A stretch of DNA of 64,000 bases from Pelomonas sp. Root405 (GTDB lineage: Bacteria; Pseudomonadota; Gammaproteobacteria; Burkholderiales; Burkholderiaceae_C), in contig NZ_LMDU01000012.1 of NCBI RefSeq assembly GCF_001425165.1, positions 77,036 through 141,035 on the forward strand. The letters are read 5' to 3'. The number at the start of each line of letters is the position of its first letter. The stretch's first letter is position 1. Positions 1,256 through 4,892 of this stretch are shown here, in pieces. The notes under the pieces were generated by a model, which worked only from the letters and a program-made list of their open reading frames with translations, did no database searches and had not been told where the DNA came from. Position numbers and translations under genes: made by a program.

Positions 1256-1331
1256 GTAGGTACGTAGGCACAATTCGGTCTCCACGCATGGACAGCCCGT
1301 AAGAAGCGGGCAAAGTCCGTCGACCTACGTA
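1256..1331 (+). promoter_or_regulatory. Foldable leader / candidate riboswitch ahead of the ABC operon
   Basis: An 8-bp long-range helix TACGTAGG (1261-1268) with CCTACGTA (1324-1331) closes just at the A of the ATG start. Inside it a second stem pairs GGAC (1290-1293) with GTCC (1315-1318), stacked on GCCCG (1295-1299) and CGGGC (1307-1311). No Shine-Dalgarno sequence is visible before the ATG, so the outer helix could gate initiation. NMT1-domain transporter genes are known to carry the NMT1-motif (xanthine-I) riboswitch in proteobacteria; I could not match this leader to its consensus from memory. A cis-regulatory RNA is inference. Confidence 0.4.
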
Positions 1332-2371
1332 TGGCGACCGCATTGAGCGAATCCACATTTCCCAGCGTCGACCGCCGGCAGCTGTTGCGCGGCACGCTCG
1401 CGTCGGCATTGCCGGTGCTCGGCCTGCCCGCGGCGGCCGCATCAGGCCCGCTGATCGTTGGCGGCCTGCCGGTCACCTGCAACCTGACGCTGCCGGTCGC
1501 CTGCATGGCGCGCGCCAACAGCAACAAGACCGCCGGCAGCAAGACCTTCGAGTTCGAGTACAGCAAGTACAACGGCTGGCCCGAGATCAAGGAATCGCTG
1601 ATGACGGGCCGCATCCAGGCGGGCTACATGCTGGCACCCCTGGTCATGGACCTGGCGGACAAGCGCATCCCCGTCAAGATCGTCTCGCTGGGCCACCGCT
1701 CGGGCGCCGTCATCATGGTGCGCACCGATTCGCCCTACAAGAAGTTCAAGGACCTCACGGGCAAGCGCATCGCCATTCCCAGCCGCTTCGCGGTGGACTT
1801 CCTGTTCCTGCGCAAGATGCTTGCCGCAGAGGGCATGAGCCCGAAGGACATCCAGATCATCGAGATGCCGCCGCCCGACATGCCGGCGGCTCTTTATGCC
1901 AAGGCCGTCGACGGCTATTGCACCGGCGAGCCCTTCGGTGCGTCGGCCCAGCGTGCCGGCTACGCCAGGCCGCTGCGCATGACGCGCGATGAATGGCGCA
2001 ACTACATCTGCTGCGTGCTGACCGTGCGCGAAGAGCTGATCAAGGAAAACCGACCTCTGGTGCAGAACCTGGTGGACCATGTGCAGGGCGCCGGCAACTG
2101 GCTCGACCAGCAGGCCGCCAACCGCGAGAAAGCCATCCAGATCGCCGCCGGTCGCAAGTTCTTCAACCAGGACCCGAACATCCTGCGCTTCGTGATGGAG
2201 AACCCGACCGACCGCGTGACTTATGGCGACCTGCGCATGATCCGCGCCGAGTTCGACGAGCTGATGAAGTTGTCCATGGAGGCCGGCACCTTGAAGCAGC
2301 CGGTGGCCTACGAGAAGTACGTGGACGAGAGCTTTGTGAAAGCAGCCAAGGCCGCGCCCATCCCGATATGA
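1331..2371 (+). CDS. ABC transporter substrate-binding protein, NMT1/NrtA-like
   Basis: A 346-residue periplasmic binding protein and first gene of a five-gene operon. The N-terminus DRRQLLRGTLASALPVLG followed by AAAAS is a Tat-like signal. The body has the NMT1/SsuA/NrtA pattern: ligand-lobe start LIVGGLPVTCNLTLPVA, YNGWPEIKESLMTGRIQAGY, GKRIAIPSRF and the NrtA/CmpA-type GYCTGEPFGA. Ligands in this family include nitrate, bicarbonate, sulfonates and pyrimidines; none can be assigned here. The next gene overlaps it by ATGA. Its company with two copper-type proteins is unusual for the family. Transport role is likely; substrate unknown. Confidence 0.85.
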   Translation: MATALSESTFPSVDRRQLLRGTLASALPVLGLPAAAASGPLIVGGLPVTCNLTLPVACMARANSNKTAGSKTFEFEYSKYNGWPEIKESLMTGRIQAGYMLAPLVMDLADKRIPVKIVSLGHRSGAVIMVRTDSPYKKFKDLTGKRIAIPSRFAVDFLFLRKMLAAEGMSPKDIQIIEMPPPDMPAALYAKAVDGYCTGEPFGASAQRAGYARPLRMTRDEWRNYICCVLTVREELIKENRPLVQNLVDHVQGAGNWLDQQAANREKAIQIAAGRKFFNQDPNILRFVMENPTDRVTYGDLRMIRAEFDELMKLSMEAGTLKQPVAYEKYVDESFVKAAKAAPIPI

Positions 2372-2946
2372 AACGCCGAACGTTGTTGCTGGCCGCGCTG
2401 CCGGCGTCTGCGATTGCCAGCACGCCGCCTCGGCTGAAGGCCGGTGTCTTCGAACCCGCACAAGCCGCGCCGGAGTTCTCGCTCAAGGGCAGCGACGGCG
2501 CCGAGCTGAAGCTGGCGCGTTTCAAGGGCAAGCTGGTGCTGCTGATGTTCGGCTTCACCCAGTGTCCCGAGGTCTGCCCAACGACGCTGGCCACGCTGGC
2601 CCAGGCGCGCAAGTCGCTCGGCGCGGACGCGGCGGACGTGCAGGTGGTCTATGTGACCGTCGACCCGGAGCGCGACGACGTCGCGCGCATCCGCCAATAC
2701 CTAGGCGCCTTCGACACCAGCTTTGTCGGCGGCACCGAGACGCCCGAGAAGCTGGCCGCGATGCGCAAGCGCTACGGCGTCGTCGCCGAGAAGATCGCCG
2801 CCAAGCAAGGCAACGCCTACGGCATGAACCACTCCACCTCGGTCTTCCTGATCGACCGCGCCGGCAAGCTGCGCGCCATGATGCCGTACGGCCACGAGGC
2901 CAAGGACTTCGTCCATGACCTCAAGCTGCTCCTGGCGGCCAAGTGA
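2368..2946 (+). CDS. SCO1/SenC family copper chaperone / thiol-disulfide protein
   Basis: A 192-residue secreted or membrane-anchored protein starting at the ATG that overlaps the upstream stop (ATGA). After a short signal (MKRRTLLLAALPASAIA) comes a thioredoxin-like fold with the SCO copper site: C66 and C70 in CPEVC, and H155 in GMNHSTSVFLID. The pattern VVYVTVDPERD is also typical. SCO proteins load copper into cytochrome oxidase CuA or act as thiol reductases in the periplasm. Here the gene lies between an ABC binding protein and a cupredoxin rather than beside cox genes, so its client is probably another operon product. Family secure, partner inferred. Confidence 0.92.
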   Translation: MKRRTLLLAALPASAIASTPPRLKAGVFEPAQAAPEFSLKGSDGAELKLARFKGKLVLLMFGFTQCPEVCPTTLATLAQARKSLGADAADVQVVYVTVDPERDDVARIRQYLGAFDTSFVGGTETPEKLAAMRKRYGVVAEKIAAKQGNAYGMNHSTSVFLIDRAGKLRAMMPYGHEAKDFVHDLKLLLAAK

Positions 2947-3374: not shown

Positions 3375-4132
3375 ACCTGCGCCTGAATCGAATCCTGCCG
3401 CCGCTGGCGGTCATCACCGTGATCATCGCGGCGTGGTGGGCCATCGTCGTCTACACCGAGAGTCCCATCTTCCCGACGCCGTGGGCGGTTGTCACCGGCA
3501 CGCTGGAGCTGGCCGAGGACGGCACGCTGTGGGAGCACATCACCGCGTCCCTCATGCGTGTGGGCATCGGCTTCGGCTTCGCGATGCTGATCGGCATTCC
3601 GCTCGGCCTGTGGATGGGCTGGGTGGATGCGGCTTACCGCACCTTCAACCCGATCTTCCAGATGCTGCGGCCGATCTCGCCCATCGCCTGGATCCCGCTG
3701 GCCATCCTGTGGTTCGGCGTCGGCGACGTCTCGCCCATCTTCCTGATCTTCATCTCCTCGGTGTTCCCGCTCATCGTGCAGACGACATCGGGGGTGCACA
3801 CCATCGACCGGCGCTACCTGCGCGCCGCGGCCAACTTCGGCGTGTCGCGCGTGGTCATGTTCCGCCGCGTCGTCATTCCCGCCGTGCTGCCGGAAATCAT
3901 CATCGGCATGCGCATCGGCATCGGCGTGGCCTGGCTGGTCGTCGTGGCCGCCGAAATGATTGCGCTGCGTTCGGGCCTGGGCTATCTCATCATGGACTCG
4001 CGCAACGCGGGCAACCGCTATGACCTCGTCATCGCCAGCATGATCCTCATCGGCGTCATCGGCCTGATGTTGGACGGCGTCACCCGCCTCCTCGAAAAAC
4101 TCAAAACCGTGCGGTGGCGCTATGTCCGATAG
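3371..4132 (+). CDS. ABC transporter permease (BPD_transp_1, SsuC/NrtB-like)
   Basis: A 253-residue inner-membrane permease starting at GTG within the previous stop (GTGA). It has about six hydrophobic segments (for example VITVIIAAWWAIVVY near residue 15 and MILIGVIGLMLDGV near 225). The coupling EAA-type loop reads RAAANFGVSRVVMFRRVVIPAVLPEII. The length matches SsuC/TauC/NrtB permeases, which pair with NMT1-type binding proteins. It overlaps the ATPase start by 11 bases, so all five genes are almost surely one transcript. Substrate not determinable. Confidence 0.92.
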   Translation: MNLRLNRILPPLAVITVIIAAWWAIVVYTESPIFPTPWAVVTGTLELAEDGTLWEHITASLMRVGIGFGFAMLIGIPLGLWMGWVDAAYRTFNPIFQMLRPISPIAWIPLAILWFGVGDVSPIFLIFISSVFPLIVQTTSGVHTIDRRYLRAAANFGVSRVVMFRRVVIPAVLPEIIIGMRIGIGVAWLVVVAAEMIALRSGLGYLIMDSRNAGNRYDLVIASMILIGVIGLMLDGVTRLLEKLKTVRWRYVR

Positions 4133-4892
4133 CAAAAAGATTTCCGTCCGCGGCCTGACCAAGAGCTTCAAGGCCGCCAAGGGCGGCCAGCTGCCCGTGA
4201 TCCAGGGCGTCGAGTTCGACGTTGCCGAAGGCGAGTTCGTCGCCATCGTCGGTCCCTCGGGCTGCGGCAAGTCCACGCTGATGAATATCCTGGCCGGCTT
4301 CGAGCAGCCCGACAGCGGCACCCTGCTCATCGACGGCAAACCTCATCCTGGCCCCAGCCCTCAAGGCATCGTCATCTCGCAGTACGGCTCGGTCTTCCCC
4401 TGGCTGACCGTGCAGCAGAACCTGATGTTCGGCCTGACCGGACAGGAGCACGGCGTCGATGCTGAGCGGGTCAAGCTCGCCGACCACTACGCCGCCATGG
4501 TCGGCCTCAAGGGCTTCGAGGGCGCCTATCCGCACGAGCTGTCGGGCGGCATGCTCAAGCGCGTGGAGCTGGCACGCGCCTTCATCGTCAAGCCTGAAAT
4601 CCTCTACCTCGACGAGCCCTTCTCGGCACTCGACGCGCTGATGAACCTGCGCATGCGCAACGAGTTGCTGCGCATCCTGGCCGAAGAAAAGCACACCGTG
4701 CTGCTCATCACCCACGACGTCGACGAGGCTCTCTACATGGCCGACCGCATCTTGGTGTTGTCACCGCGACCCACGCGCATCCAGGCCCGCTTCGAGCTGG
4801 ACATGCCGCACCCGCGGCGCCTGATCAGCCCCGAGATGGATCAGCTGCGCGAGGCCATCCTGAAGGAGCTGGGGCTGGAGATGCCGGCCTAG
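4122..4892 (+). CDS. ABC transporter ATP-binding protein (SsuB/NrtD-like)
   Basis: A 256-residue cytoplasmic ATPase of the nitrate/sulfonate/taurine importer class. Walker A is GPSGCGKST (44-52), the Q-loop QYGSVFPWLT, the signature LSGGMLKRVELARA (Met in place of the common Gln), Walker B ILYLDEPFSALD and the switch His in LLITHDVDEA. It energises the permease encoded directly upstream, which its start overlaps. Its TAG stop overlaps the stop of the convergent OsmC gene by four bases. Confidence 0.93.
   Translation: MSDSKKISVRGLTKSFKAAKGGQLPVIQGVEFDVAEGEFVAIVGPSGCGKSTLMNILAGFEQPDSGTLLIDGKPHPGPSPQGIVISQYGSVFPWLTVQQNLMFGLTGQEHGVDAERVKLADHYAAMVGLKGFEGAYPHELSGGMLKRVELARAFIVKPEILYLDEPFSALDALMNLRMRNELLRILAEEKHTVLLITHDVDEALYMADRILVLSPRPTRIQARFELDMPHPRRLISPEMDQLREAILKELGLEMPA

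Follow-up and report, generated by a model that had tools for sequence, protein, structure and literature searches.

A conserved five-gene operon combining an ABC importer with SCO and cupredoxin genes in Pelomonas sp. Root405: a possible route of copper uptake

Five genes of Pelomonas sp. Root405, located on the plus strand at positions 1331-4892 of a 64,000-nucleotide stretch of contig NZ_LMDU01000012.1 (hereafter the window), form a real, conserved unit. In order, they encode an NMT1-type substrate-binding protein (SBP), an SCO protein, a cupredoxin, and the permease and ATPase of an ATP-binding cassette (ABC) transporter, and successive genes overlap by 4, 4, 4 and 11 bases, as the initial annotation of this DNA had described. 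Because the NMT1-like SBP, the BPD_transp_1 permease and the ABC ATPase all exceed their Pfam cutoffs, the unit encodes a binding-protein-dependent ABC importer. We tentatively consider, with somewhat less than even confidence and from sequence comparison, that this may be a self-contained importer that takes up copper, or a small compound with bound copper, and has its own chaperone relay. The composition suggests an undescribed way of acquiring copper or a copper-dependent compound; a text search of the open-access literature for the five-gene make-up returned no described system among the matches listed, which accords with the earlier remark that none was known. Kept across several orders, the combination of an SBP with SCO and cupredoxin genes in one five-gene unit represents a compact, testable candidate. 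If the copper reading is true, SCO and cupredoxin would be working for a transporter instead of a respiratory oxidase, and the operon would provide a natural cupredoxin in which the first His ligand is replaced by Gln.

Conservation and distribution of the five-gene unit

A GTDB scan used two conserved SBP peptides as the query and therefore favours true orthologs. The best 80 of 92 relatives were analysed as loci, with SBP identities of 69-92%. At 72 of these loci the SBP, SCO, cupredoxin, permease and ATPase genes are all present and stand in a single order; at the remaining eight the series is cut off by a contig end after its first one to four genes. The loci span Roseateles/Pelomonas, Aquabacterium, Duganella, Rugamonas, Massilia, Pseudoduganella, Steroidobacter and others, and they also include metagenome-assembled genomes (MAGs) labelled, among others, Cellvibrio, Luteimonas and Acidobacteria. 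The initial annotation had proposed a gene-neighbourhood survey and had named two outcomes that would tell against its view, namely that the cluster is confined to close strains or that orthologous SBPs always occur without SCO and cupredoxin. Neither outcome was observed: the unit is far from confined to close strains, being found at SBP identities as low as 69%, and the 72 loci with all five genes in order have both.

The five families also co-occur in the genome samples. The cupredoxin was found in nine of 60 genomes (our own included), eight of them among the 20 genomes of the genus, and all nine loci have the five proteins, some cut by sequence ends. In the family, a cupredoxin match at E <= 0.001 is present in 19 of 299 genomes, strong in 18 and weak in one, and the 18 genomes with an SBP match at E <= 1e-40 are identical to the 18 with a strong cupredoxin. 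The weak match (G568; 5.5e-4) contains an in-frame stop, and the best SBP match of that genome (5.2e-12) is not an ortholog. Across 369 genomes of the class, cupredoxin matches were limited to our own genome and a weak one with two in-frame stops (3.4e-4) in a genome in which an SBP match at 1e-5 was sought and none was found. At the level of the phylum, nine of 200 genomes match the SBP at E <= 1e-25, of which the eight besides our own are 30-34% identical, and a cupredoxin profile matched our own genome and G971 alone among 299 genomes. In PLSDB, 20 records match the SBP, none at 80% coverage; plasmid-borne copies of the operon were rejected because the matches are short and, in the best 15 of the 20, 25-31% identical.

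The five proteins have correlated distance matrices (0.63-0.78, compared with shuffled maxima of 0.10-0.19), and common ancestry of the genomes contributes to these values. This comparison was based on 62 sets, including the window, in which all five proteins are complete and of normal length; for several genes of the relatives, a script set the start so that the product had the expected length. According to the median identities over these sets, the SBP (75%) and the permease (76%) have changed most slowly and SCO (53%) and the cupredoxin (59%) fastest. We infer that the SBP value would fit one fixed ligand.

Candidate metal sites in SCO, cupredoxin and SBP

The operon SCO matches the Pfam SCO1/SenC family at 2.2e-39 and has its ligand residues, with C66 and C70 of the CxxxC motif kept in all 78 sequences and H155 in 77 of 78. 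The CxxxC motif and the distal His are shared with the nearest solved SCO1/SenC protein, Blr1131 (4wbj); what sets the operon SCO apart from SCO1/SenC chaperones is that it is encoded within an importer operon. Another SCO, 40-46% identical to that of the operon, is present in each of the 20 genus genomes. In our own genome this second SCO (43% identity) adjoins the genes for COX1, Cox11, COX3, SURF1 and Cox15, and because it sits in its own oxidase cluster, the operon SCO is an additional protein and not the oxidase SCO. In the SCO tree, 77 of the 78 operon SCOs fall in one clade (support 0.97) and the protein of locus L128 lies outside it; strict monophyly was obtained neither for the operon SCOs nor for the other SCOs.

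The third protein has a cupredoxin fold, a beta-sandwich like that of solved cupredoxins, and in the structural model its N-terminal helix may be read as a membrane anchor. C103 and H106 are kept in 76 of 76 sequences and M111 in 73 (Leu in the other three), giving the spacing C-x2-H-x4-M, but the N-terminal His ligand expected after D-x-V-P is Gln76 in 75 of the 76. The exception with His is L130, the locus of lowest SBP identity. No further conserved His or Cys column was found in the alignment. The His-Cys-His-Met set of a type-1 (blue) copper site is incomplete, the first His being Gln. These residue counts leave out two of 78 sequences with stops in the scripted interval; alignment A6 comprises 57 rows and omits L119, which is intact, and L122, for which the scripted interval overran the true stop of an intact protein with Gln, Cys, His and Met. 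Amicyanin, plastocyanin and the purple cupredoxin 5fc9 have the fold in common with the operon protein and also the spacing of its C-terminal ligand loop, and the difference lies in the Gln that replaces the N-terminal His. This substitution suggests a site that would favour copper shuttling or exchange over blue-copper electron transfer. CupA of S. pneumoniae is described in PMC7558416 as a membrane-anchored cupredoxin chaperone with a two-copper site that serves the exporter CopA; it is absent among the sequence matches of the operon cupredoxin and its role is in export.

In the SBP, C50, H122, C197, C227 and C228 are invariant in 79 of 79 sequences and C58 is kept in 77. The twin arginines of the signal are likewise invariant; the fuller Tat-like pattern accompanies them in 77 of the 79 sequences, and 20 of the 79 show a lipobox pattern. 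Alignment A5 contains 55 of these 79 SBPs, and in alignment A4 the row of L025 is one base out of frame and its counts were excluded. In the model secondary structure, C50, W83, H122, R152, D156 and T198-E200 come after strands whose ends we take to form the cleft of the SBP fold, and it is from this and the alignment that the putative pocket residues were assigned. Among NCBIfam models, all seven listed for the SBP score below cutoff, including the SsuA family (TIGR01728; 2.6e-35, 122.1 of 163.5 bits) and TauA (38.9 of 304.25); the 18 members of SBP alignment A3 all match the SsuA family. The SsuABC, TauABC and NrtABC importers share the SBP fold and the permease and ATPase families with the operon, whereas in the operon the SBP and permease genes are separated by those for SCO and the cupredoxin, and the SBP has the conserved cysteines at 50, 58 and 197.

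Comparison with 13 distant SBPs (24-32% identity by BLAST; two are poor matches, and L149, which has no SBP alignment, was left out) separates the conserved residues into two groups. The vicinal pair at 227-228 is present in 11 of the 13 and H122 in 10. Position 156, Asp in the operon SBP, is His in all 13; position 225, Tyr in the operon SBP, is His in 10; position 50 is Asp in eight and Cys in one; and position 197 is Cys in one. The vicinal pair and H122 are, on these alignments, old features, and C50, C197, D156 and Y225 mark the operon SBP family. No operon-SCO or cupredoxin match at E <= 0.01 was found in the stretches of 3.4 to 12.7 kb around the distant SBPs. On a Ruminococcus albus plasmid (L132, 5824-10562), a distantly related SBP-permease-ATPase trio lies immediately ahead of cooS, whose annotation is carbon-monoxide dehydrogenase. 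The closest solved relative is 3un6, an S. aureus SBP titled as zinc-bound (profile A3 matches it at E 5.3e-36; Foldseek gives 27% identity). W83, H122, R152, EPF and the vicinal pair are found in both proteins, and 3un6 differs in having His at the positions of C50 and D156 and Ser at that of C197.

Copper import and competing explanations

If copper is the cargo, SCO would take up or reduce periplasmic copper through its CxxxC/His site. The cupredoxin, held to the membrane by its N-terminal helix, would hand on Cu(I) from an exchangeable Cys-His-Met(-Gln) site, and the SBP cleft, with C50, H122, C197 and perhaps C227-C228, would hold the copper species. The permease and ATPase would then drive this species inward, where it might serve cytoplasmic copper routing. 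Stated in full, as a copper or copper-chelate ABC importer with SCO as reductase or loader and the Gln-variant cupredoxin as a Cu(I) shuttle, scattered through the Burkholderiales and present in Steroidobacter and in further MAGs, some labelled Cellvibrio, the proposal is possible but doubtful. The task would resemble that of CcoA, which takes up copper over the inner membrane, although CcoA is a copper importer of the major facilitator superfamily that has no SBP and belongs to an unrelated transporter class.

Several observations weigh against copper as the cargo. The window permease lacks Cys altogether and contains only two His, and an alignment of 62 permeases shows just two conserved His columns. 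C227-C228 and H122 are not specific to copper, because they are present in relatives with no SCO or cupredoxin match nearby. For most of the solved SBP-fold relatives listed, the ligands are oxyanions, sulfonates or organic molecules, families absent from the fold-match listings not being counted as excluded. A conserved sixth gene was rejected, no neighbour being constant over the 80 loci. G971, of the same order, has a lone degenerate cupredoxin relative (L186, 4652-5125) and neither the operon nor an SBP ortholog; by eye, its first ligand site is His and the second His and the Met are lost. No cuproenzyme partner emerged from the two examined, NosZ and ccoN: NosZ (nos_propeller) occurs in two of the 20 genus genomes, and ccoN, which occurs in all 20 (19 above cutoff), is for that reason uninformative on a link to the cbb3 oxidase. 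The initial annotation's idea of a copper-linked importer thus stands as regards the conserved association and an SCO that is not the oxidase SCO. Its copper-containing or redox-sensitive ligand gains no such backing: the SBP reaches no NCBIfam cutoff, the permease is free of Cys, and the searches for an RNA element, a shared upstream motif and a constant sixth gene were all negative.

Second after copper import we rank a soft ligand that contains no copper and has redox partners, an explanation that we regard as possible but less likely than not. The cargo may be a small sulfur compound or anion (a sulfonate, a thiocyanate-like or another thiol-reactive molecule), with SCO and the cupredoxin as a redox pair; it is similarly conceivable that the pair processes the ligand or keeps the SBP cysteines reduced before import. 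SCO proteins can serve as thiol reductases, the SBP is SsuA-family-like, and it has a vicinal Cys pair and two more invariant Cys. An Alginate_exp-type outer-membrane barrel gene (1.9e-21) lies between cupredoxin and permease at one of the 80 loci, a MAG (L093, 6375-8006), and has no match in the other 79; such a gene would suit the passage of a small solute through the outer membrane, whether or not that solute is copper. However, the Cys and second His of the cupredoxin are constant in 76 of 76 sequences, which a structural or pure thiol role does not demand, and no catabolic or other gene is constant nearby.

An assembly function, which we consider unlikely, would make the ABC unit a copper-site machine for the maturation of a periplasmic cuproenzyme encoded elsewhere. 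NosDFY with NosL is the comparison here, an ABC-type system of copper-site assembly. SCO and the cupredoxin could be the dedicated metallochaperones next to such a unit, and both NosZ-bearing genomes of the genus also have the operon. However, NosZ is missing in six of the eight operon-bearing genus genomes, so that a nitrous oxide reductase does not regularly accompany the operon; the SBP and the binding-protein-dependent permease indicate uptake; and there is no constant neighbour gene. A link to denitrification was rejected, with nosZ in two of the 20 genomes.

Quite unlikely, in our opinion, is the detoxification or scavenging of an organometal or another soft metal by analogy with the Sao ABC system. 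A review (PMC13188914, citing Haft and Gwadz 2023) gives SAO as a Sec-assisted organometallic operon, and the best NCBIfam match is SaoP for the permease (2.5e-57) and SaoA for the ATPase (1.1e-59). However, every Sao score is below its curated cutoff (SaoX 54.6 of 300, SaoP 194.3 of 295 and SaoA 201.8 of 360 bits), as are all 20 models listed for the permease and the best 25 of 191 for the ATPase. The SaoX model is unspecific, with matches in eight of 14 control genomes and above cutoff in none, and clustering gave no constant gene beside the five, the Sao partner models not having been searched singly. Finally, an accidental operon of an ordinary importer and spare respiratory copper chaperones is very improbable, for although the second SCO in its own oxidase cluster could make one chaperone surplus, SCO and cupredoxin stand between SBP and permease in all 72 uncut loci, the arrangement is constant while the neighbours change, and the SBP and cupredoxin genome sets are identical.

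Operon layout and surroundings

The features of the operon are collected in Table 1.

Table 1. Features of the five-gene operon, with positions in the window.
Feature	Position	Strand	Characteristics
Periplasmic SBP, NMT1/SsuA/NrtA type	1331..2371	+	twin-arginine signal R15-R16; invariant C50, H122, C197, C227-C228
SCO1/SenC-type copper chaperone / thiol reductase	2368..2946	+	CxxxC (C66, C70), H155
Cupredoxin	2943..3374	+	GTG start; helix 4-21, beta-sandwich, C-terminal helix 123-142; C103, H106, M111, Q76
ABC importer permease	3371..4132	+	BPD_transp_1; GTG start; nearest NCBIfam models SaoP, TauC, NtrB, SsuC, all below cutoff
ABC importer ATPase	4122..4892	+	nearest NCBIfam models SaoA, NtrCD, TauB, all below cutoff
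Upstream region	1260..1330	+	stretch around GTAGGTACGTAGGCACAATTCGGTC...ATGGACAGC common to several Roseateles/Pelomonas loci (by eye)

Upstream of the operon, a riboswitch or other RNA was rejected, since Rfam gave no match on window positions 1-12000 at E up to 1. When 78 upstream stretches were compared by eye, similarity was found only within clades and no motif was common to all of them; a sigma-54 site was weighed by eye and dropped. A PHROGs comparison gave no informative match.

Outside the five operon genes, every gene family is restricted to at most 10 of the 80 loci. The larger neighbour clusters lie by position over the operon core and are overlapping frames; the non-core clusters are exemplified by Duganella/Rugamonas-type loci, and their recurrence is therefore possibly plain synteny. 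The 134 nearest flanking genes, which were called by script with some frames probably wrong, form 99 clusters, the largest of seven. An OsmC-family gene (window 4889-5401, minus strand; Pfam 2.3e-10) converges on the ATPase gene with a 4-base overlap and lies downstream at seven of the 80 loci (L051-L057; 87-93% identity); a gene annotated as OsmC-family likewise neighbours the distant SBP relative of a Methylocystis plasmid (L131). Upstream of the operon, L077 (6747-9161) encodes a methionine sulfoxide reductase of the SelR type together with a large protein containing thioredoxin-like domains, and the frames of both clusters recur in nine loci.

In Roseateles saccharophilus (L052, 12036-12285), an insertion of about 220-250 bases separates cupredoxin from permease. 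Its ends are 27-base inverted repeats (89%), it resembles a small non-coding mobile element, and no second copy was found across the 80 loci. Elsewhere in the window, a copper/zinc superoxide dismutase gene (29797-30318; Pfam 5.3e-33) lies about 25 kb off the operon, with no sign of a link. The sequence just before the operon (1095-1241) recurs in inverted orientation at 24069-24215 with 82% identity over 148 columns, and this pair is possibly a dispersed repeat of this genome.

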